Of a stretch of DNA of 9,895 nt, positions 304-9,895 are shown piece after piece (position 1 is the first letter of the stretch; each line of letters starts with the position of its first letter). Made by a program: the position numbers and the translations under genes. Origin of the DNA: a bacterium (GTDB lineage: Bacteria; Blakebacterota; Blakebacteria; Blakebacterales; Blakebacteraceae); the NCBI GenBank assembly GCA_025774615.1, contig JALGVQ010000127.1:1-9895 (forward strand), read 5' to 3'. Below the pieces are notes generated by a model. That model was not told the DNA's origin, did not search any database, and worked only from the letters and a program-made list of their open reading frames with translations.

Positions 304-1176
304 CTACTTGCCGCGGTTGATTCCCAGGTAAGCGATCAGCTTGAAAACGAGCCGTGCTGCCACAGAATCGGAACCGTGCAGACCTTCACCCGGACAGAGC
401 TCGACCACATCGGCGCCCACCACCCGCTTCTCCCTGCAGAGAGCTCGCAGCAGTGAGAGTGTTTCATACCACTCCAGACCGCCGGGTACCGGAGTACCCA
501 CTGCCGGAACAAGAGAGGAATCGAGACCATCCAGGTCGATGGTCAGGTAGACATCATCACCGGGGATCGCCGAGATGATCCCGGCTGTCCGTTCCTCCAC
601 ACTTCCGGTTCTTTCATGTGCCAGGAAGGTGGTCCTCAGTTCACCGTCGAGCAGCGGCGCTTCACTCTCATCCACCGATCGGATCCCGACCGCCGTGACA
701 TGCACTCCCAGTTCCATGATCCGGCGCATCGGGCAGGCGTGATTGAAGGGAGAACCTTTATAGGTGTCCCGCAGGTCGGCGTGGGCATCGATCTGCAGAA
801 CGCTGAGATCGGGCCACTCCTCATGGTGGGCCTTTACCAGCGGCCAGGTGACCGAATGCTCACCACCAAGGGAGATCAGTGTCCTCTCCCGGCGCAGAAG
901 CCCGGAAGCGAGCGCTTCGATGCTCTCCATCGCGGCAGCAGGTTCACCGGGCAGTTCGGGGATGGCGTGTGTGGCGATCCCCCCGATCGTTGATGCCGGC
1001 TTTCCCAGAACCTCATCGTCGTAATGCTCGATGTGACTGCTTGCCTCAAGGATCGCCGCGGGACCGCCGGCAGTTCCACTCTTCCACGAAACGGTCAGAT
1101 CGAGCGGCAGCGGCAGTATCATCACACCGCTTCTCTCCGGGTCCGAGAGTTCCGGCGGCAGATCGAGAAAGTTCAT
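304..1176 (-). CDS. speB: Ureohydrolase, agmatinase-like (arginase/agmatinase/formiminoglutamase family)
   Basis: This 290-residue protein has every metal-site motif of the ureohydrolase fold: GGEHS (104-108), DAHAD (130-134), NHAC (145-148), DLDGLD (214-219), followed by GTPVPGG (227-233) and ADVVEL (255-260). These residues bind the two Mn ions that activate water to release urea from a guanidino substrate. Length and motifs fit bacterial agmatinases, which convert agmatine to putrescine and urea in the cytoplasm. The family also contains arginases, guanidinobutyrases and guanidinases, so the substrate is inferred. A longer reading with GTG at 1188 is possible, but ATG at 1176 is preferred: it has GGAGG five bases upstream and lies one base after the thiC stop (TGA-G-ATG). 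It is the second gene of the thiC operon and probably translationally coupled, hence indirectly under the TPP riboswitch. The usual DP after DGL/DVL is DS here, a minor deviation. Confidence 0.9.
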   Translation of the reverse strand: MNFLDLPPELSDPERSGVMILPLPLDLTVSWKSGTAGGPAAILEASSHIEHYDDEVLGKPASTIGGIATHAIPELPGEPAAAMESIEALASGLLRRERTLISLGGEHSVTWPLVKAHHEEWPDLSVLQIDAHADLRDTYKGSPFNHACPMRRIMELGVHVTAVGIRSVDESEAPLLDGELRTTFLAHERTGSVEERTAGIISAIPGDDVYLTIDLDGLDSSLVPAVGTPVPGGLEWYETLSLLRALCREKRVVGADVVELCPGEGLHGSDSVAARLVFKLIAYLGINRGK

Positions 1177-1177
1177 C

Positions 1178-2737
1178 TCACCCTCCACCAGGGTGCTCTC
1201 CCGCGCCGAAATCCCCTATCTCCTTACTGATGCGGACCGCGCACCACTCCCGACCGCACATGGAACAGTAGTCCTCATCGGGACAATCATCTTCCTCCCG
1301 GTACGCCTGTGCGGTCTCGGGATCGAAAGAAAGCCTGATGTGTTCCTGCCAGTCGAGGGCGGCCCGGGCCCTGGTGAGCTCGTCATCCCAATCGCGACTA
1401 CCGGGAATACCGAGCGCCACATCGGCAGCGTGTGCCGCGATCTTGTAAGCGATACAGCCCTGCTTCACATCATCTTTTTTCGGCAGGCAGAGATGTTCCT
1501 TCGGTGTGACATAGCAGAGCATCGCCGCCCCGTGATACGCGGCAGCCGTGGCTCCGATGCATGAGGTGATGTGATCGTATCCTGGGAAGATATCCGTCAC
1601 GAGCGGCCCCAGCACGTAGAAGGGAGCTCCGTGGCAGACTCTTCGCTGATATTTCATGTTGTACTCGATCTGATCGAACGACACATGCCCCGGACCTTCG
1701 ACCATCACCTGGCAACCGGCGGCCCACGCCCGTTCGGTGAGTTCTCCCAGCGTGTCGAGCTCGCGCATCTGGGCCTCATCAGTTGCATCGGAGAGTCCCC
1801 CCGGCCGCAATCCGTCACCGAGGGACCAGGCGACATCATATTCACGCATGATGGCGCATATCTCATCGAAGAGATCATACATCGGGTTCTGCCGGCCGTG
1901 ATGGATCATCCATTTGGCGAGCAGGGATCCGCCACGACTCACGATACCGATCTGTCGATCCCCCAGGTAAGGGAGATGCTCCCTCAGCAGACCGGCATGG
2001 ATCGTGAAGAAATCAACACCCTGTTTCGCCTGCTTCTCGATCTCTTCGAGGATTCCGGCGTGGGTCAGTTCCTCGACGCTCCTGCCGATGATCATCGAAT
2101 AGATCGGTACGGTCCCGATCGGAACGGTGGAATGCCTGATGATCGCCTCACGACATTCATCCAGATTCCCGCCGGTCGAAAGATCCATGGCCGTGTCGGC
2201 GCCCCATCGAACCGCCCACTCGAGCTTGTCGATCTCCTCCCCGGTACCGGAGGTGATCGGTGACGCACCGAGGTTCGCGTTTATCTTGGTAGTCGCCGCC
2301 CGGCCGATCGCCATCGGATCGAGACTGTATGAGAGATGGATCCGGTTTGCGGTGATGAGCAGACGCCCGGCGGCTATCTCCTCCCGCACCTGTTCCAGAG
2401 TCAGGTGCTCTTCCCGCTCAGCGACCCGTATCATCTCGGGCGTCACGCTCCCGAGCCGCGCGTGCTCGAGCTGTGTAGCAGCCTTGAATCCCGGTGGCGG
2501 AACACATGAACCGTCAGTCACCTGCCACTCCGGGGGCAGGAAGTCCCAGGCGGTATTGTCGGAGGGTTCCGGCATACCCGGTGTATCGGGAGAACTGAAG
2601 GTATACGGTGTGCCGATCCCGGCTGGACGGGCAAAACTCCCCGGTGTGCTGCCGGCTCCCGTACTTGAGGGATTACTCCCCGATGTCAGATGTGCGAAGC
2701 GATGAGAGTCGTTATCATCAGCGCGTTGAGTATTCAT
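1178..2737 (-). CDS. thiC: Phosphomethylpyrimidine synthase ThiC
   Basis: ThiC is a radical-SAM enzyme that rearranges aminoimidazole ribotide into HMP-phosphate, the pyrimidine half of thiamin. The 519-residue product is a full catalytic domain: [10 protein letters not shown] (151-160), [11 protein letters not shown] (184-194), [11 protein letters not shown] (204-214), FFTIHAG (243-249), [10 protein letters not shown] (267-276), LGDGLRPGG (306-314), [15 protein letters not shown] (346-360), [14 protein letters not shown] (378-391) and [17 protein letters not shown] (420-436). It ends with the ThiC cluster motif CX2CX4C (C491, C494, C499), which binds the [4Fe-4S] cluster. Residues 1-65 are a low-complexity Ser/Gly/Pro/Thr-rich leader; the core resembles the short ThiC type, lacking the large N-terminal domain of E. 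coli ThiC. The start at 2737 is supported by AGAGG six bases upstream and by the riboswitch immediately before it. The gene is first in a two-gene operon with the ureohydrolase. Confidence 0.98.
1182..1186 (-). promoter_or_regulatory. Ribosome binding site of the ureohydrolase gene
   Basis: GGAGG on the minus strand ends five bases before ATG at 1176. It lies inside the last thiC codons (the terminal Gly run) and supports the ATG at 1176 over the in-frame GTG at 1188, whose initiation codon would overlap this site. Confidence 0.7.
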
Positions 2738-2743
2738 GGAGTA

Positions 2744-2748
2744 CCTCT
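2744..2748 (-). promoter_or_regulatory. thiC ribosome binding site touching the riboswitch closing stem
   Basis: AGAGG on the minus strand lies six bases before the thiC ATG. Its first base, and the GA just before it, belong to the 3' strand of the proposed P1 stem of the TPP aptamer (AGCAGAA against TTCGCT). Ligand-stabilised P1 would therefore crowd or partly hide the Shine-Dalgarno sequence. Confidence 0.6.
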
Positions 2749-2832
2749 TCTGCTTTCCTACGCCGGAATGACCCGGATCAGGTTCGAGGGTGTGTTCTCA
2801 GTCCCGCGCTTCCGCGGGACACCCCTAGCGAA
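2748..2832 (-). ncRNA. TPP riboswitch (Thi box) upstream of thiC
   Basis: Read on the minus strand, the thiC leader carries the conserved parts of the TPP aptamer in the right order. They are AGGGGTGT, then a perfect eight-base hairpin GTCCCGCG-GAAG-CGCGGGAC (variable P3 arm), then CTGAGA, ACACCC, GAACCTGATCCGGGT, and CATTCCGGCGTAGGAAAGC. CTGAGA forms the pyrimidine-binding junction; the ACCTGATC...GCGTAGG part forms the pyrophosphate-binding arm. The outer bases TTCGCT and AGCAGAA can close P1 with one bulge. No hairpin followed by a T-run lies between the aptamer and the ATG (11 bases), so control of translation initiation is more likely than attenuation. Binding of TPP would reduce ThiC, and by coupling ureohydrolase, synthesis. 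Confidence 0.95.
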
Positions 2833-2845
2833 CAGTAACCAGTTA

Positions 2846-2874
2846 AAGATACGGGGCTGCCGGAAAATCAGCAA
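2846..2874 (-). promoter_or_regulatory. Probable sigma70-type promoter of the thiC operon
   Basis: On the minus strand TTGCTG (2869-2874) and TATCTT (2846-2851) are separated by exactly 17 bases. The matches to TTGACA and TATAAT are partial (3/6 and 4/6). The expected start, about seven bases downstream, falls just before the aptamer's 5' P1 strand, as usual for riboswitch leaders. The call rests on position more than on hexamer quality. Confidence 0.45.
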
Positions 2875-3004
2875 CCGGACGGCTGAACTGGATGCGGCCG
2901 GCAGCGGATTACGGTACGATGTGAGGAGATGTACTTGTCGGACATTCAGCGGAAAATGGAAACGATACCGATACCACCCGTTTGAAAGGGCTCTGCTACC
3001 AGCC

Positions 3005-4255
3005 ATGCATGATACAGTCATCAATCCGGATAATGTGTCGTCGGCCGACATCATCGTAGGTATTCCCTCCTACAATGAGGCCGACAGTATCGCCTATCCC
3101 GTCGACGTCTCCGATAAAGGTCTGCGCGAGTTCTTCGGCAACCTTGACGCCGTCATCATCAATGTCGACAACAACTCGGACGATGGTACAAAGGATGTGT
3201 TCCTGAACACGCCCACCAGTACACCGAAGGTCTATATCTCCACACCGGAGGGTGTGAAGGGCAAGGGCAACAACATCCGGAATCTCTTCCGGGCAGCGGT
3301 GGAACTGAACGCCAGAGCCGTGGTCATGGTGGACGCCGACCTCAAGAGTATCACTCCATCGTGGATCAGGTACCTCGGCGAGCCCCTCATGGGCCGGTTC
3401 GACTATGTCACGCCGATCTACGTGCGGCACAAGTATGACGGCACCATCACCAACAACATCACCTACCCGATGCTCAGGAGTCTCTTCGGCCTCCGTGTTC
3501 GGCAGCCGATCGGTGGCGACTTCGGCTTTTCCGGGACCATGGCCCGGGCGTTCCTCTCCGAGAAGCTGTGGAACGACAAGATCGCGAACTTCGGGATCGA
3601 CATCTGGATGACAACGATCGCCATCGCCCGCGGGTTCAACGTGTGTCAGGCATTTCTCGGCAGTCCGAAGATTCACCGGGCGAAGGATCCCGCTGAGGAT
3701 CTGAGCACCATGTTCACCCAGGTCGTCGCCACCCTCTTCGACCTGATGATGGAATTCGAGTACCTGTGGAGGGGACTCGATGAAAGCAGACCGAGCAGCA
3801 TCTTCGGCTTCGGCCTGGGAGTCGATGAGAAACCGCCGGAGGTCCACGTGAGCACCGACAAGCTCTATGAGAGCTTCGTCAATGGATGCCATGAATACAG
3901 GGATTTATGGGAAGAGGTCCTCCCCATGCCTGAAATGGTCCAGTGCCAGAAGATCGTCGATGATTCAGATGTCGACACTTTCTACTACCACAGTGACCTG
4001 TGGGCAAGGGTCCTCTTCAATTTCGCGGTGGCTTACAAACGAGAAGAGGTCGACCGGACCCGGCTCCTCGAATCACTGATCCCCTTCTACCACTCGCGTG
4101 TTCTCTCGTTCGTCAACAAGACGCTGAACCATGGCATCCGGGAGACCGAGGAGTACCTGGAGAACATCATCAGGGTGTTCGAGGCGGAGAAACACTATCT
4201 CATCAAGCGGTGGGATGAATCGAGGAATACGCAGGACAGCCTGCTTTTCGAATAA
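3005..4255 (+). CDS. GT-A fold glycosyltransferase, glucosyl-3-phosphoglycerate / mannosylglycerate synthase-like
   Basis: The 416-residue product starts with a GT-A nucleotide-sugar fold: IIVGIPSYNEADSI (16-29), VDNNSDDGT (54-62), GVKGKGNNIRNLF (83-95) and the metal-binding VDADL (109-113). Acceptor-side elements QPIGGDFGFS (167-176), NFGIDIWMTT (195-204) and the conserved His of KIHRAKDP (222-229) follow. This order (PSYNE, KGKG, DADL, QPxGGDF, GIDxW, KxHR) recalls GT81 and GT78 enzymes, which transfer glucose or mannose to 3-phosphoglycerate or glycerate to make compatible solutes. The C-terminal 180 residues are helical, without transmembrane segments, so the protein is probably cytoplasmic. 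The exact donor and acceptor are inferred. The frame is open back to 2690, but that would run antisense across the thiC start, riboswitch and promoter, so ATG 3005 is chosen; its ribosome site is weak (GAAAGGG, 14 bases upstream). It is transcribed alone, divergent from thiC and convergent with feoB. Confidence 0.8.
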   Translation: MHDTVINPDNVSSADIIVGIPSYNEADSIAYPVDVSDKGLREFFGNLDAVIINVDNNSDDGTKDVFLNTPTSTPKVYISTPEGVKGKGNNIRNLFRAAVELNARAVVMVDADLKSITPSWIRYLGEPLMGRFDYVTPIYVRHKYDGTITNNITYPMLRSLFGLRVRQPIGGDFGFSGTMARAFLSEKLWNDKIANFGIDIWMTTIAIARGFNVCQAFLGSPKIHRAKDPAEDLSTMFTQVVATLFDLMMEFEYLWRGLDESRPSSIFGFGLGVDEKPPEVHVSTDKLYESFVNGCHEYRDLWEEVLPMPEMVQCQKIVDDSDVDTFYYHSDLWARVLFNFAVAYKREEVDRTRLLESLIPFYHSRVLSFVNKTLNHGIRETEEYLENIIRVFEAEKHYLIKRWDESRNTQDSLLFE

Positions 4256-4279: not shown

Positions 4280-5677
4280 TCAGACCCCCGCGATCAACCT
4301 CCAGAGGTTCGCCACCAGGAAGCACACAACGAAGGCGATTGCCAGGGGCATCAATGCCCCTACGGCCGTCCATTTTCTGCTCCCTGTCTCCTTCCACGTC
4401 GTCAGGATCGTTGTGGAACACGGATTATGGAGGAGGCTGAAGAGCATCAGGCAGACCGCGGTCAACAGCGTCCATCCCTGATCCCCGACCAGTATCCCCT
4501 GCAGTTCAGCAAGACCGGTGATATCCACCATCCGGGTCGCGCCGCTGTAAGCCATCAGGATCGCTGGAACGACAATCTCATTTGCGGGTATCGCGATGAT
4601 GTAGGCAAGAATGATCACTCCATCGAGACCGATCGCGTTCCCGAGGGGCTCAAGAGCCGTTGAGATGATGACCGTGAGGCTCTGATCACCTACATGGATC
4701 GCGCTCAGAAGCCAGATCAGCGCACCGGCCGGCGCTGCCATATAGATCGCTCTCTTGAGCACGAACAGCGTCCGGTCGATGATCGAGGTATAGAGAATTC
4801 GACCGATATTCGGACGACGGTACGGGGGCAACTCGAGGGTGAAACTGGAGGCTTCTCCCTTCAGCACCGTACGGGAGAGAAAAGCCGATACCAGCAGAGT
4901 AGTCACGATACCGATTATCACCACCATCACGACCGTTCCAGCGGCAGCGAATGACGCCATCGCCGGTGAGACCGCTGTACCGACAAAGATCGTAGCCAGC
5001 ATGATCAGCGTCGGGAACCTGCCGTTACAGGGAACGAAGTTATTGGTCAATATCGCGATCAGGCGTTCCCGCGGAGAATCGATTATCCGGGTGGCGATGA
5101 CACCAGCAGCGTTGCAGCCGAATCCCATGCTCATGGAGAGTGCCTGTTTACCATGGGCTCCCGCCCACTTGAAGAAACGATCCATGTTGAACGCCACCCG
5201 TGGCAGGTACCCCAGGTCCTCGAAAAAGGTGAAGAGAGGGAAAAAGATCGCCATCGGGGGCAGCATGACCGCGGTGACCCATGCCATGCCCTTGTAAGTG
5301 CCGTGCCAGATGAAGCCGGTGATCCACCATGGTATGCCGATCGAGTTGAAGAGCGCAGCCCCCTGCTCCTCCACCCAGAAGAGAGCTGTGGCTATCATGC
5401 TGGAGGGGACGTTTGCGCCGGTGACGGTTACCCAGAATACCGCAGCCAGACCGAGGAACATGAGTGGGAGACCGAAGATGCGGCTCGTTATCACCCGGTC
5501 AAGGGCTCGGTCGAGATCGCGCCGGCGATCGAGCCTGACGGTCACATACCTGCGGTTCAGGATTCCCGCATCGGTGTAGATCGAGTCAACCAGGCGGTCG
5601 CGCAGGTCAGCTCCCAGTCTTCTCTGCAGGAGATCAGCCTGCGAGAGCACATCGTGTGAGGCGTTGGGCGCCGCCAT
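4280..5677 (-). CDS. feoB: FeoB membrane (permease) part of a split ferrous iron transporter
   Basis: This 465-residue inner-membrane protein is the C-terminal half of FeoB, which moves Fe(II) into the cytoplasm. After a soluble stretch (1-65, the second part of the helical GDI domain) come the FeoB transmembrane elements. They include FFEDLGYLPRVAFNMDRFF (151-169), the gate motif GFGCNAAGVIATRIIDSPRE (185-204), ILTNNFVPCNGRFPTLI (209-225), IPANEIVVPAILM (363-375) and HNPCSTTILTTWKE (417-430), then a final hydrophobic helix. C188 and C217 occupy the family's usual cysteine positions, and the wording of the gates matches the FeoB type common in anaerobes. The ATG overlaps the stop of the GTPase gene by one base (TGATG) and has GGGAGGG eight bases upstream, so it has its own initiation signal. 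The two products together (703 residues) equal one normal FeoB. It is the last gene of the feo operon. Confidence 0.93.
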   Translation of the reverse strand: MAAPNASHDVLSQADLLQRRLGADLRDRLVDSIYTDAGILNRRYVTVRLDRRRDLDRALDRVITSRIFGLPLMFLGLAAVFWVTVTGANVPSSMIATALFWVEEQGAALFNSIGIPWWITGFIWHGTYKGMAWVTAVMLPPMAIFFPLFTFFEDLGYLPRVAFNMDRFFKWAGAHGKQALSMSMGFGCNAAGVIATRIIDSPRERLIAILTNNFVPCNGRFPTLIMLATIFVGTAVSPAMASFAAAGTVVMVVIIGIVTTLLVSAFLSRTVLKGEASSFTLELPPYRRPNIGRILYTSIIDRTLFVLKRAIYMAAPAGALIWLLSAIHVGDQSLTVIISTALEPLGNAIGLDGVIILAYIIAIPANEIVVPAILMAYSGATRMVDITGLAELQGILVGDQGWTLLTAVCLMLFSLLHNPCSTTILTTWKETGSRKWTAVGALMPLAIAFVVCFLVANLWRLIAGV

Positions 5678-6393
5678 CAGCGGTTCCCTCCCGCCAGCTC
5701 GCCGATACTGCCATCGAGCAGGGCCTGTCGCACGGCATAATCACCATCCAGAAGCCGAAGAGCCACCCACCTGGAGTTCGGCAGATCGTGATACTGCTCT
5801 TCGATCATCGGTACGAGTTCATCGAGTGCGTCACTGAGTTCCCCGGTTATCTGCAGTCGCCTGGGTGTCGTCTCGGTCTTCCCGGAAACCATATGCGAAA
5901 CCGCGGTAGTCAGATCATTGAGACCCTTGCCGTACCTGGCGGTGGTCGGAACTATCGGCACCCCGAGTTCCTCAGCCAATCCGGCATGATCGATGGTTAT
6001 TCCCCTCCTCTTCGCCTCATCCATCAGATTGAGACAGATCACCACGCGATCTGTGATCTCCAGGACCTGCAATACCAGGTTCAGGTTGCGTTCCACCGAC
6101 GTAGCATCGACCACAACGACCGTACAATCCGGTTGTCCGAAGAGGATGAAATCGCGGGCTATCTCCTCGTCGACCGAAGCTGAGAGGAGTGAATACGTTC
6201 CGGGAAGATCGATGAGCCTGTACCTCTTCCCGTCATGGAGATAATCACCCTCTGCCCTCGTCACGGTTTTCCCCGGCCAGTTGCCGGTATGCTGTCGCAT
6301 ACCGGTGAGGGCATTGAATACCGTGCTCTTTCCGGTGTTGGGATTGCCGGCCAGTGCGATCTCGAAGTCGATGCCGGATTTGGCTACACGCAT
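5677..6393 (-). CDS. feoB: FeoB GTPase (NFeoB) part of a split ferrous iron transporter
   Basis: This 238-residue protein is the cytosolic G domain of FeoB with the first part of its GDI helical domain. The G motifs are GNPNTGKS (G1, 16-23), T43 within GNWPGKTV (G2), DLPG (G3, 62-65), NLMD (G4, 122-125) and TTARYGKG (G5 region, 150-157). SLLSASVDEEIARDF (68-82) is the switch II region typical of FeoB. Residues 180-228 (ELSDALDELVPMIEEQ, RWVALRLLDGD) are GDI-type helices. It ends at GGNR-stop, inside what is normally a continuous GDI domain, and the membrane part follows in the next frame. GTP binding and hydrolysis gate iron passage in the family; here the switch would have to act on the pore in trans. 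Its ATG overlaps the last ten bases of the upstream DtxR-FeoA gene. Confidence 0.95.
   Translation of the reverse strand: MRVAKSGIDFEIALAGNPNTGKSTVFNALTGMRQHTGNWPGKTVTRAEGDYLHDGKRYRLIDLPGTYSLLSASVDEEIARDFILFGQPDCTVVVVDATSVERNLNLVLQVLEITDRVVICLNLMDEAKRRGITIDHAGLAEELGVPIVPTTARYGKGLNDLTTAVSHMVSGKTETTPRRLQITGELSDALDELVPMIEEQYHDLPNSRWVALRLLDGDYAVRQALLDGSIGELAGGNR
5686..5692 (-). promoter_or_regulatory. Strong ribosome binding site for the FeoB membrane subunit
   Basis: GGGAGGG on the minus strand ends eight bases before ATG 5677 and lies within the last codons of the GTPase gene. A strong, well-placed Shine-Dalgarno sequence at a TGATG junction argues that the FeoB split is translated as two proteins by reinitiation. 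Confidence 0.65.
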
Positions 6394-7400
6394 TCGAGTA
6401 ACACCATTCCAGCCTGTTCCCGACGCAGAGCGATCCTGGTTCCCCGCACCCGATAAGCGCGTGGTTCTCCGAAGGGACTCGTCAGATCAACCACAACTTC
6501 GGCACCCGGCGTGAAACCGAGATCGAGGAGGCGTCGCCGTGTGAGACCGCGACAGGCATCGTCCAGCCCCATCACCACTCCTGCCTCATCCTGTTCAAGG
6601 TCAGAAAGCAGCCTGAAGGGGCCTTCAACCACACCCTTCTCCGGCACCGATGCCAGCGTGATGTTGGCGGCAACGACCGCCGCTACTACGAACTCACGTT
6701 CCTCGGTGAAGAATCTGATCTCGTTGGAGGAGCGCTCGAGGATGCGCACGTCTTCCCCGAGGTGGAGCCCTTCGGCCAGCAGTTGTTTATAGACCTCATG
6801 CGGTTCGTCCTCGAGGTGCACGATCCTTCCCTCGAGGTCGAGAGGCCATCGGGTCATCGGCGTGCCCGTCTCCTCCTCCACCTCACCATCAGAGGTCGGG
6901 ATCGGGTCACCGTGTGGATCGTATCGGGGATAACCGAGTCGAGCATCCAGCTCATCGGCCTCAGTCGGTGTGAGGAGGTGTTCTGCCTTCTCTGCCCGTA
7001 TGTGGATCTCCACGTCATCCACATCTGTCTCGTCTGCGAGATAGCGCTCCCAGAGACGATGCGCTCGTATCACCTGGAGGGCATAGCTTCTGCCGCTGCT
7101 GGTAAGCACATATCCGCGATCTTCAAGCTGGGTGTACCCATGCTGGATGAGTTCACTCACCAGTTCAGCTGCTTCTCCGGTGGATATCCCGACCACACCG
7201 GCGATCGACTCGAGTGTACCCGGCTGTCCCGCGTACTCCTGATGGTGAAGATGTTTGAGAGCGTCTTCACGTCTGACACGGGCAGTCACCACACGGCCGG
7301 CCTGCCAGCGCCAGAACCAGCCGACCTGTGGTCTGAAGGCCGTATACAGCAGGAACCCCGCAACGCAGGCGATAATGAGTGATGTGAGCGGGTCGGGCAT
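6384..7400 (-). CDS. Membrane-anchored DtxR/MntR-type metalloregulator fused to two FeoA-like domains
   Basis: The 338-residue protein has four parts. Residues 5-22 (LTSLIIACVAGFLLYTAF) form one transmembrane helix followed by a basic stretch (RVVTARVRR), which suggests an outside N-terminus. Residues 44-102 are a DtxR-type winged helix (TLESIAGVVGISTGEAAELV, GYVLTSSGR). Residues 103-168 are the dimerisation and metal domain, with H114, E118, E137, E140 and H141 placed like the MntR/DtxR ligands by hand alignment. Residues 185-252 and 272-336 are SH3-like FeoA domains (RIVHLEDEPHEVYKQL..., CRGLTRRRLLDLGFTPGAEV...). DtxR proteins repress iron or manganese uptake genes when metal is bound; FeoA assists FeoB. 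As first gene of the feo operon, behind a DtxR-like palindrome, it is probably an autoregulator and FeoB partner. Its stop overlaps the FeoB GTPase start by ten bases. The start is the first Met; its ribosome site is poor. The architecture is clear; tethering and function are inferred. Confidence 0.88.
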   Translation of the reverse strand: MPDPLTSLIIACVAGFLLYTAFRPQVGWFWRWQAGRVVTARVRREDALKHLHHQEYAGQPGTLESIAGVVGISTGEAAELVSELIQHGYTQLEDRGYVLTSSGRSYALQVIRAHRLWERYLADETDVDDVEIHIRAEKAEHLLTPTEADELDARLGYPRYDPHGDPIPTSDGEVEEETGTPMTRWPLDLEGRIVHLEDEPHEVYKQLLAEGLHLGEDVRILERSSNEIRFFTEEREFVVAAVVAANITLASVPEKGVVEGPFRLLSDLEQDEAGVVMGLDDACRGLTRRRLLDLGFTPGAEVVVDLTSPFGEPRAYRVRGTRIALRREQAGMVLLECV

Positions 7401-7463: not shown

Positions 7464-7497
7464 GCACCAATAATTAGGCAAGCCTAATTATTGGTGC
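7464..7497. promoter_or_regulatory. 34-bp near-perfect palindrome, probable DtxR-family operator of the feo operon
   Basis: Two perfect 16-base inverted arms, GCACCAATAATTAGGC and its complement, flank a two-base AA centre. The inner half, TTAGGC-AA-GCCTAA, matches the TTAGG...CCTAA core of DtxR/IdeR/MDR1-type iron boxes. It begins directly downstream of the proposed -10 element, so a bound repressor would cover the transcription start. The first gene of the operon encodes a DtxR-type regulator, which makes iron-dependent autorepression the simplest reading. No T-run follows on either strand, so a terminator is unlikely. Confidence 0.8.
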
Positions 7498-7526
7498 AGA
7501 GTACCACCACTGTCATGGGATGTCAA
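7498..7526 (-). promoter_or_regulatory. feo operon promoter
   Basis: On the minus strand a perfect -35 hexamer TTGACA (7521-7526) is followed after 17 bases by TACTCT (7498-7503). TGG just before it could act as an extended -10 (TGN). The predicted start, near 7490, falls inside the palindromic operator. The -10 is weak (3/6), which fits a regulated promoter. Confidence 0.6.
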
Positions 7527-7541
7527 CGCAAACAATACATA

Positions 7542-8510
7542 TCAGCGGAGGATCAGCAGCTTTCGGGTACTCCTGGCCCCTCCTGCCCTGAGTTCCATCA
7601 GATAGATCCCTGAGGGGACCATTCTCCCCTGGTCGTCGTATCCATCCCACCCGGGCAGCTGCTGGTAGAACCTGTTTTCAAGGGAGCCGTCAATCACGGT
7701 TGCCACATGTCGTCCGCGAACATCGAATACTTTCAGTGTCACCGACGACCAACCTCTCCCCAGATCGGAGAGATCAGCCATTGCGAACAGTGGTCTGCCG
7801 GCTGAAGGATTGGACGGATTCGGATAGGGGGCACCGAGTGATATCGATCGTGTGCCTTCTTCACTGCTGCCGGTTGTCGAAGACCAGGCCTCCACCCGGA
7901 TGTTATCGACGCTCCAGCCTCCTTCTATGGCATCATCAGCGGTGTTGCGATATCCGGTAAACCAACCGAGCCATAACCGGTCGGTACCGATGAAGGGAGT
8001 CAGATCGACCTCTATCTCTTCCCATCCTTCCCGGTTCCCGGTCGTGTAATAGATGGCCGGATCTGAATCGACTGTTGGATCTTGAGGAAGGGGAGTGACG
8101 AAACGATCGGTACTGACAATGATAGCTGCTATATTTTCAGGGCCAACAAGCTGTCGGCTCATGAATCTGAGCGCAGCACCATGATACTCCCGAAGATCGA
8201 TCGGCACCTGAAGAGTAATCAGATTCTCCTCATGGGTCGCCCAGCCGTTCGGCGCGTCGGAAATGCTGTACGATCCGGCAAACGGTTCGATCTCGGTGAG
8301 GGCGAATCCACCGCTGAGGTTCCAGTCGCTGAGACCATTTTCTGCACCCTCCTGCATCAGCAGAACAGGCTCTCCCACCATCATCCCGATCGTATCTATG
8401 CGTGTGTACCCATTCATGGCATCGACACGGAGCGCGAATTCCATCCGCCTCCCCCGGGTTGTCCCTGCTCTCTCCAGCCGCGATATCGCCGATCTGTGAG
8501 GTACCATCAA
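7542..8510 (-). pseudogene. C-terminal part of a frameshifted M14 carboxypeptidase: jelly-roll domain and FlgD-like sorting tail
   Basis: This frame continues the carboxypeptidase after a one-base shift near 8451-8455; recognisable protein starts at about MEFALRVDAMNGYTRIDT (from residue 23, near 8444). Residues 50-208 form a beta-sandwich of the kind seen after immune-inhibitor-A and MAM-like domains, with the typical ending GGWSVDNIRVEAW. Residues 225-322 are a FlgD-Ig-like or type IX-like tail: APYPNPSNPSAG, VTLKVFDVRGRHVATVIDG, WDGYDDQGRMVPSGIYLMELRAGG, ending TRKLLILR. Such tails direct export and surface anchoring or processing in FCB-group bacteria. The nominal Met at 8510 is probably not a true start: no good ribosome site was seen and the first ~20 residues are not family-like. 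If the shift is a sequencing error, this is simply the last third of one intact gene ending in TGA at 7542. Confidence 0.8.
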
Positions 8511-9895
8511 GTACCGTCGCGTCAGCTCCCAGGGCAGTCAGCGTAGCCACAGCCCCGGTAACTGATCGGGAAAATCCGGCATTGGTCCAGGTAACCGTGA
8601 CCTCTGCCGTCTCATCAGGATCGATCCATCCGTTCCCATCCCCTCCGACCTCAACACTCTCGACATCATCAGGAAGAAGCACTCCGCCTGCCATCCAGGC
8701 AGTCAGGTAATTCGGTCCTATCTGTTCCCGGACCAGTGTGGGGATACGCAGAGTGGGCGGCCAGAAATAATCGAACCAGGTGCCCACTTCCGGCACCACG
8801 GCAAGTACGCCGCGATCACCGTATTGCCAGTCGACGGCACCGCCATTGGTGTGGTATCCGATCAACGACGAGCCGGTACCGTAGGCAAAATGGTTGAAGC
8901 TCGACAGGCGCCCGAGCCATCGCTGGTAGGCATCCAGGCTATCCACAGGAGTCGATGTATAGCTCCACGGGAAGAGGTATACATTGCTGTAGGCATGATA
9001 ATTGAGACAGAACTGGAAGGAGCGCCGGTCGAATACCGCCCGCACCGCCCGGGTCTCCGGTTCACTGAACGGCGCCGTTCCGCGGTATGTGCCCCATCCG
9101 GGAATGGGACTGGAACCGATGTCATCCTCACCCCAGTGAAATCCATAGTTCCGGTTCAGATCGACGCCGTCCACGTCGGGATCGAATACTCCATCTCCGT
9201 CATTGTCGCGCTTGTTCTTGCGCCACATCCCGCCCCCACCCGGCATCCAGACCTCGTTGAAGTAATAGCCATCCGGGTTGATAACCGGCACGAACCAGAG
9301 TTCCCGTGATCCCAGGAGCGACTGAACCGTCAGATCGTTCGCTGTCCAGCCACGGGCAATATCCTCAACGAATGCCAGGAGCTGCATGACGCCGATCGGT
9401 TCACGGGCGTGGGTCAGGGAATTATAGAAAACCGCCGGTCGGCTCAGGTCGGGCGTGTCCGGATCGGGAGCGTCTGATACGACGAAGGCCCAGATCTCCC
9501 TGCCTTCCAGCGAAGTGCCGACACTGAATTTCGGACTGATGATATCAGGATAGTTCGTTGAGAGCTCATCAACCTTTGCGAGTACCTCGGCGAGAGTGTA
9601 ATAGCCACCCATGCTGCCGGGCCCCAGAGAGGCATCGAGACGACTCGCAAACCATACTTCGGCATTCTCATGGGTGATCTGGAAGGTGATGCCGGCTGAC
9701 CGAAGGGCCGCAAGTTCTTCCTGGTCGGCAAAGACCACCGCATCTCCACCGAAAGGACTCATCTGGATCTCGAGACCGAGGCGGGATATTCGGGCCAGCT
9801 CGGTCCGGGTAGGAGCATCGATCGCGATCATGGCGATCCGTTCAGGTCCCTGGGCCTCGGCTTGCAGCGGCCAGGCTATCACGACCGCCGTTATG
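8230..9895 (-). pseudogene. Secreted M14 zinc carboxypeptidase, N-terminal and catalytic part (5' partial, frameshifted)
   Basis: The frame stays open to the window end, so the true start is outside. The first visible residues, ITAVVIAWPLQAEAQ, are the hydrophobic core and AEA cleavage region of a signal peptide. A propeptide-like region follows. The M14 catalytic domain begins at GGYYTLAEV. Numbered from the GTG at 9882, it has the zinc ligands H158 and E161 (THARE) and H296 (NYHAYS). It also has NPDGYYFN (202-209), the substrate-binding DLNRN (241-245) and the catalytic Glu E365 in VPEVG. All key residues of carboxypeptidase T/A-type peptidases are present. Residues 405-472 form a beta domain with the GDGNGWIDPDE motif. 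At about residue 477 the frame leaves family-like sequence; the rest to the stop at 8230 is out-of-frame sequence, while the neighbouring frame continues the protein. It should act outside the cell, trimming C-terminal residues from peptides. Whether the gene is broken or misread is open. Confidence 0.85.
8451..8455 (-). other. Frameshift site in the carboxypeptidase gene (G5 run)
   Basis: On the coding strand the sequence is AACCC-GGGGG-AGG. Removing one G joins the catalytic frame (GDIAAGESRDNPG) to the downstream frame (RRMEFALRVDAMNG) without a stop, giving one continuous protein. The shift needed is therefore one extra base, most simply in this homopolymer. No typical programmed-frameshift elements are evident. 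Confidence 0.7.

Follow-up and report, generated by a model that had tools for sequence, protein, structure and literature searches.

The first gene of a feo operon in the window, here the whole 9,895-nt stretch of DNA that was analyzed, encodes a protein that joins an N-terminal membrane anchor, a DtxR-type metal-binding module, and a C-terminal FeoA domain. We put at roughly 60% the probability that this fusion is a membrane-anchored, metal-sensing FeoA subunit that tunes FeoB post-translationally, with a sensing module derived from an old DtxR repressor. It probably adjusts the FeoB importer itself rather than the genes encoding it.

Anatomy of the fusion protein and its operon

The window corresponds to contig C182 in a metagenome-assembled genome of 3.3 Mb that is 82% complete, and the collection includes 4 genomes of the host's phylum. 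The operon lies on the minus strand and consists of overlapping genes for the fusion protein, the FeoB GTPase domain, and the FeoB membrane domain, in this order, with a TGATG overlap joining the membrane gene to the GTPase gene (Table 1). An earlier reading of this DNA made without database searches (the sequence-only reading) had the fusion co-encoded with FeoB, and this was borne out, with a split feoB directly downstream. The split in FeoB, at junction 5677 (window 4280-6393), falls inside the cytosolic helical domain. Ordinary neighbors were identified at window 304-4255, including an agmatinase/arginase-like gene, thiC, and a gene for a mannosylglycerate-synthase-like glycosyltransferase. 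Further, an M14 carboxypeptidase gene (window 7542-9882) is present as 2 overlapping frames, and the break near 8451 is either genuine or an assembly error; a relative in another genome (G002, C16:1607-3019) is 1 open frame, and G000:C162 carries a fragment that is 95% identical.

Table 1. Features of the feo operon and of the fusion protein, in window coordinates
Feature	Coordinates	Strand	Evidence
Membrane-anchored DtxR-FeoA fusion protein, 338 aa	6384..7400	-	ORF, Pfam, AF2 model, structure comparison
FeoB GTPase domain gene, first half of split FeoB, overlaps fusion gene	5677..6393	-	FeoB_N 1.5e-60
FeoB membrane domain gene, second half of split FeoB	4280..5677	-	Gate 3.6e-28, FeoB_C 4e-15
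Transmembrane helix, residues 4-21	7338..7391	-	AF2 helix; conserved in 81/89; hhalign to permease-DtxR fusions
Winged helix, residues 44-103, DNA-reading surface unconserved	7092..7271	-	Pfam, conservation, AF2 pLDDT 94
DtxR metal-binding and dimerization domain, residues 100-169	6894..7103	-	PF02742 (Fe_dep_repr_C) 3.8e-23; conservation
DtxR-type SH3 domain, residues 181-258, with H195-x-E197-D198-E199-P200	6627..6860	-	Profile search, conservation, structure
FeoA domain, residues 259-338	6387..6626	-	Profile search, structure comparison
DtxR-type operator, perfect 16+16 inverted repeat, core TTAGGCAAGCCTAA at 7474-7487	7464..7497		Sequence search
Sigma-70-like promoter TTGACA-N17-TACTCT, directly upstream of operator	7499..7527	-	Read from window and L050

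The AlphaFold2 (AF2) model of the fusion, built from an alignment of 68 sequences, had a mean pLDDT of 94.4. The single N-terminal transmembrane helix proposed from the sequence alone was recovered in the model (pLDDT 94-98), followed by a basic helical linker to about residue 43, and a predicted helix spanning residues 28-56 continues into the winged helix. The basic residues behind the transmembrane helix suggest that the bulk of the protein after it is cytoplasmic. Residues 43-252 of the model adopt the long-form DtxR/MntR fold (manganese repressor 5zr6, Z 24.4, rmsd 1.5), and residues 259-338 adopt the FeoA fold (3e19, Z 14.7; B. fragilis FeoA 7r7b, Z 14.5, rmsd 1.5). The long-form MntR/DtxR repressors (5zr6, ScaR, SloR, and IdeR) have this fold and the metal ligands in common with residues 43-252, but they have kept the surface that reads DNA and possess neither the membrane helix nor the additional FeoA domain. 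The C-terminal part is alike in sequence and structure to FeoA (3e19 and 7r7b) and to FeoAB fusions, and feoB is adjacent; whereas FeoA is otherwise known as a free protein or as a fusion to FeoB, here it is joined to a metal-sensing module.

In the Pfam search, both Fe_dep_repr_C and FeoA matched the fusion, with FeoA found in 2 stretches of the whole protein (3.2e-21). Searched alone, the last domain (257/261-338) scored 64.9 bits for FeoA (E about 6.9e-18) against a cut-off of 23 bits, whereas the first SH3 domain, with 17.7 bits (E 0.0039), fell below it. On these separate domain scores and the structural matches, the fusion has 1 DtxR SH3 domain and 1 true FeoA domain. The claim of 2 FeoA-like SH3 domains was therefore rejected as it stood: the last domain (about 259-338) is more than an ordinary DtxR SH3, but the preceding one is of the ordinary DtxR type. 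No stand-alone FeoA was found in the 82%-complete host genome or in the sister genome. The winged helix had been called a complete DtxR one, and its fold is intact; however, it had no match to PF01325 in the Pfam search, and its DNA-contact positions are not retained. The protein had no Pfam match to FeoC either, and membership in that family was rejected.

The candidate metal-ligand set in the window protein includes D46, H114, E118, H133, E137, E140, and H141, along with the H195-x-E-D-E-P motif. The ligands named in the sequence-only reading (H114, E118, E137, E140, and H141) were all right but incomplete, as conservation adds D46 and H133. The ligands are near invariant, with a mean identity of 92% in the fusions and 93% in soluble DtxR proteins, and the additional H-x-E-D-E-P motif is near-invariant in the fusions. 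PgMntR (Porphyromonas gingivalis PG1044) likewise has DtxR domains followed by 2 C-terminal SH3/FeoA domains and is encoded with FeoB2 (PMC4805248). Compared by published residue numbers only, its H85, E89, H104, C108, E111, H112, D132, H134, H166, D169, and E170 correspond to window positions at a constant offset of 29 (27 for D19), and the spacing of H-x-E-D-E-P is that of H166, D169, and E170, which are candidate PgMntR ligands. The fusion has the domain order and ligand spacing of the twin-FeoA DtxR type but not its solubility without a helix; PgMntR has no room for a membrane helix ahead of its DNA-binding domain (aa 13-65) and has Cys at the position of window E137.

A DtxR-FeoA family next to feoB and the probable source of its anchor

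The window protein is part of a coherent membrane-anchored DtxR-FeoA family present in many bacteria. A scan of GTDB contigs identified relatives in about 8 phyla, including Chloroflexota, Bacteroidota (including Ignavibacteria), Gemmatimonadota, Acidobacteriota, Verrucomicrobiota, Planctomycetota, Myxococcota, and Calditrichota. In all 75 assignable loci, feoB lies directly downstream of the fusion; the split form is the commoner state (52 loci), and feoB is fused in 23, a count that includes L082, whose fused FeoB fell outside the distance rule of the script. Another set of related loci likewise has feoB directly after the fusion wherever the sequence extends far enough. A soluble dtxR gene precedes the fusion on the same strand in 29 loci and is divergent in 4, and about 39 of the 75 loci had none within the sequence available around the fusion. 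Elsewhere in the genome, a soluble dtxR was identified in 18 of 19 genomes tested, mostly those without one at the fusion locus. A text search of a literature collection returned no described membrane-bound DtxR-FeoA protein, though one may still be published.

The transmembrane helix, scored as a hydrophobic stretch with a 17-residue Kyte-Doolittle mean of at least 1.65, is present in 81 of 89 fusions, and the helix is found in the homologues from the same genus (79% identical overall) and the same family (69%). As it is kept in the sister species and across phyla, we rejected the possibility that it is an upstream mis-start or an assembly artefact. When 162 DtxR domains were placed in a tree, the fusions fell on one side of a branch with support of 100/98, soluble DtxR proteins were separate (100/96), and ABC-3 permease-DtxR fusions lay in between. 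Most helix-less members fall in one weakly supported subclade (86/69), which includes 2 Bacteroidales proteins without a transmembrane helix that resemble PgMntR; because of this grouping, loss of the helix is the simpler direction. Locus L067 (G000:C159, 1-2718) encodes a second, divergent FeoB-like protein and, after it, another DtxR-like protein, which has a FeoA-type SH3 domain but an N-terminus of a different kind. Loci L006, L008, and L015 look similar, and these proteins may form a second Feo-linked sensor family.

The N-terminus of the window protein resembles the last helix and linker of ABC-3 permease-DtxR fusions (TroC/YtgC-YtgR), in which DtxR is also attached to the membrane; in contrast to these, the other permease helices are gone, FeoA has been added, and the partner is FeoB rather than an ABC transporter. 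The 46 residues that precede the DtxR domain, with DtxR itself excluded, were made into profiles for 76 fusions and for 20 permease-DtxR fusions, and hhalign aligned the two profiles with a probability of 95% (E 2.7e-8). When an HMM built from the N-terminus of the fusions alone was searched against 1799 proteins, it matched the C-terminal end of 10 of the 20 permeases (E 1.5e-4 to 0.045), and the best unrelated protein had E 0.11. The match is in register with DtxR and ends at or near the DtxR junction, and both groups have in common a hydrophobic helix, P-x-x-G, a basic helix, and E-D. The simplest account of these alignments is that the anchor was left as the last ABC-3 permease helix after truncation, bearing in mind that short hydrophobic segments can converge. 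The argument for a permease origin comes from the helix comparison, because the DtxR-FeoA fusions are not nested inside the permease-DtxR fusions in the tree. Adjacent ABC-3 permease genes, each with a C-terminal DtxR domain, were identified at L155-L159 (G367:C8 and G146:C39), which suggests paired membrane-tethered sensors in one transporter.

The DNA-reading surface, the operator, and the likely repressor

We took T40, Q43, and R47 to be DNA-contact positions of DtxR, from general knowledge of DtxR-DNA structures; the window protein has E76, E79, and E83 at these positions, giving an acidic surface. Mean pairwise identity of the reading surface, defined by contact positions from the DtxR literature, was 14% among 89 fusions vs 39% among 42 soluble DtxR proteins, and the corresponding values were 50% vs 61% for the core and 54% vs 55% for domain 2. 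One protein of the soluble set (L119_sol_3478) is really a cut-off fusion and was left out of the paired test. This test, in which pairing controls for phylogeny, covered 32 loci with both proteins and gave 13% for the fusions and 42% for the soluble proteins (locus-bootstrap difference of 24-33 points), with domain 2 equal (55.6 vs 56.0). Reading-surface columns had a median percentile of 15 among all columns in the fusions vs 52 in the soluble proteins, and the wing is 1 residue shorter in 87 of 89 fusions. The PF01325 profile matched all 29 soluble DtxR proteins searched; of 68 fusions, no more than 17 were matched when E values up to 1 were allowed, the best at 1.4e-4.

The palindromic operator sits just downstream of the -10 box of the feo promoter, and the sister species has TTGACA-N17-TATTCT and TTAGGCTAACCTAA at the equivalent place. 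At up to 1 mismatch, the box TTAGGCNNGCCTAA was found at 2 places in each of the genus's 2 genomes, namely the feo promoter and a site that closely precedes or overlaps the start of a soluble dtxR gene, whose product is the one PF01325 protein of each genome; in the host genome this gene is on contig C298. Besides the window and its own soluble dtxR, the box scored upstream of feo in 23 related loci at a shuffled frequency of 0.02 or less; a motif-free search for inverted repeats upstream of feo operons in related loci found nothing shared. The box precedes feo operons in several phyla and is a very conserved DtxR-type operator. Exact copies were found in Gemmatimonadota and Chloroflexota loci without an adjacent soluble dtxR, and the genomes of these loci hold an unlinked PF01325 protein. 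Perfect boxes stand upstream of the fusion at L082, L108, L111, and L115, common to different phyla. Fusions that follow operators identical at 12 of 12 specified bases have just 0-5 of 14 reading-surface residues in common, whether they are compared with one another or with the window protein. Since the operator and its soluble reader are conserved and the fusion surface is not, the most likely repressor of the feo operon is a separate, soluble DtxR that acts through the palindrome. The sequence-only reading had assigned this repression to the fusion, and we do not retain that assignment.

The fusion could nevertheless function as a metal-dependent repressor of the feo operon that encodes it, at the membrane or soluble, with FeoA as a regulatory appendage. 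Soluble PgMntR resembles the fusion in domain order and in how its ligands are spaced, and it binds the feoB2 promoter of its own operon but no longer does so when FeoA2 is missing (PMC4805248); a DtxR box stands before the window operon, and the winged-helix fold is predicted to be intact. However, PgMntR shifted its promoter in EMSA at 700-1000 nM, near-micromolar, and did so also as the apo protein and with EDTA (PMC4805248). The C-terminal FeoA of the 2 helix-less Bacteroidales relatives is very basic (pI 10.5-11.1), whereas that of the window protein has a pI of 5.3. Further, the box in this genus is common only to the feo and soluble dtxR promoters, nearly all genomes tested have an intact soluble DtxR, and the unconserved, acidic surface of the fusion also stands against this role, which we consider unlikely. 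In contrast to the promoter binding reported for PgMntR, the DtxR part of the fusion is, as judged from its residues, apparently an old repressor that can no longer recognize its DNA site. Poor surface conservation is no proof of lost function or lost DNA binding, because YtgR-type domains bind DNA although the winged helices of permease-DtxR fusions also look divergent; YtgR, the DtxR domain of the Chlamydia permease fusion, is a DNA-binding repressor released by cleavage (PMC5599777).

The DtxR part could also be an inert scaffold that dimerizes and anchors FeoA, with a structural metal and no signal. As such a scaffold would predict, the dimerization domain and FeoA persist regardless of changes in the anchor and the DNA surface, but the near-invariant DtxR/MntR ligand set and the HxEDEP motif fit sensing better, and we regard a purely structural role as improbable. 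A dormant repressor released from the membrane by proteolysis, like YtgR in Chlamydia, is very improbable: the ancestral link to permease-DtxR fusions and the described cleavage of the YtgC-YtgR fusion (PMC5599777) fit it, but release would still require an operator-reading surface, the linker is modeled as an ordered helix running from residue 28 to 56 into the winged helix, and several lineages have simply lost the anchor.

A proposed role in the control of FeoB

How FeoA affects FeoB is a long-standing open question. In B. fragilis, FeoA contacts the FeoB GTPase with a GTP analogue bound and slows NFeoB hydrolysis about 50-fold, and the authors postulated an unknown signal that dislodges FeoA once iron has accumulated (PMC8980893). 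With FeoA tied to a DtxR-type metal site, metal-dependent control of FeoB at the membrane is the most likely role of the fusion. Cytosolic Fe2+ (or Mn2+) would fill the metal site of the DtxR dimer, the filled dimer would change shape and alter the contact of FeoA with the FeoB GTPase, and FeoB import would be switched or slowed, with the membrane anchor keeping the sensor at the transporter. The core of the sequence-only reading, a membrane-anchored DtxR metal sensor that is also the FeoA partner of FeoB, is well supported by the helix, the ligands, the FeoA domain, and the feoB linkage; where that reading had transport state coupled to transcription, a coupling of metal state to transport fits better.

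FeoC is a winged-helix protein that works with FeoB and offers a possible functional parallel to the winged helix of the fusion. More tentatively, we propose a widespread family of metal-gated FeoA proteins in which a DtxR repressor stopped reading DNA, kept its metal switch, and acquired its anchor from the final helix of an ABC permease; it would switch FeoB off or on directly when metal suffices, perhaps with the winged helix as a FeoC-like protein contact.

The signal of iron sufficiency is what the B. fragilis FeoA study lacks, and a membrane-anchored fusion of sensor and FeoA, whose gene always accompanies feoB, offers a direct candidate. The family appears to represent a repressor that has moved from the control of transcription to the control of transport, and many such proteins, although probably annotated as metal-dependent transcriptional regulators, may not control transcription.
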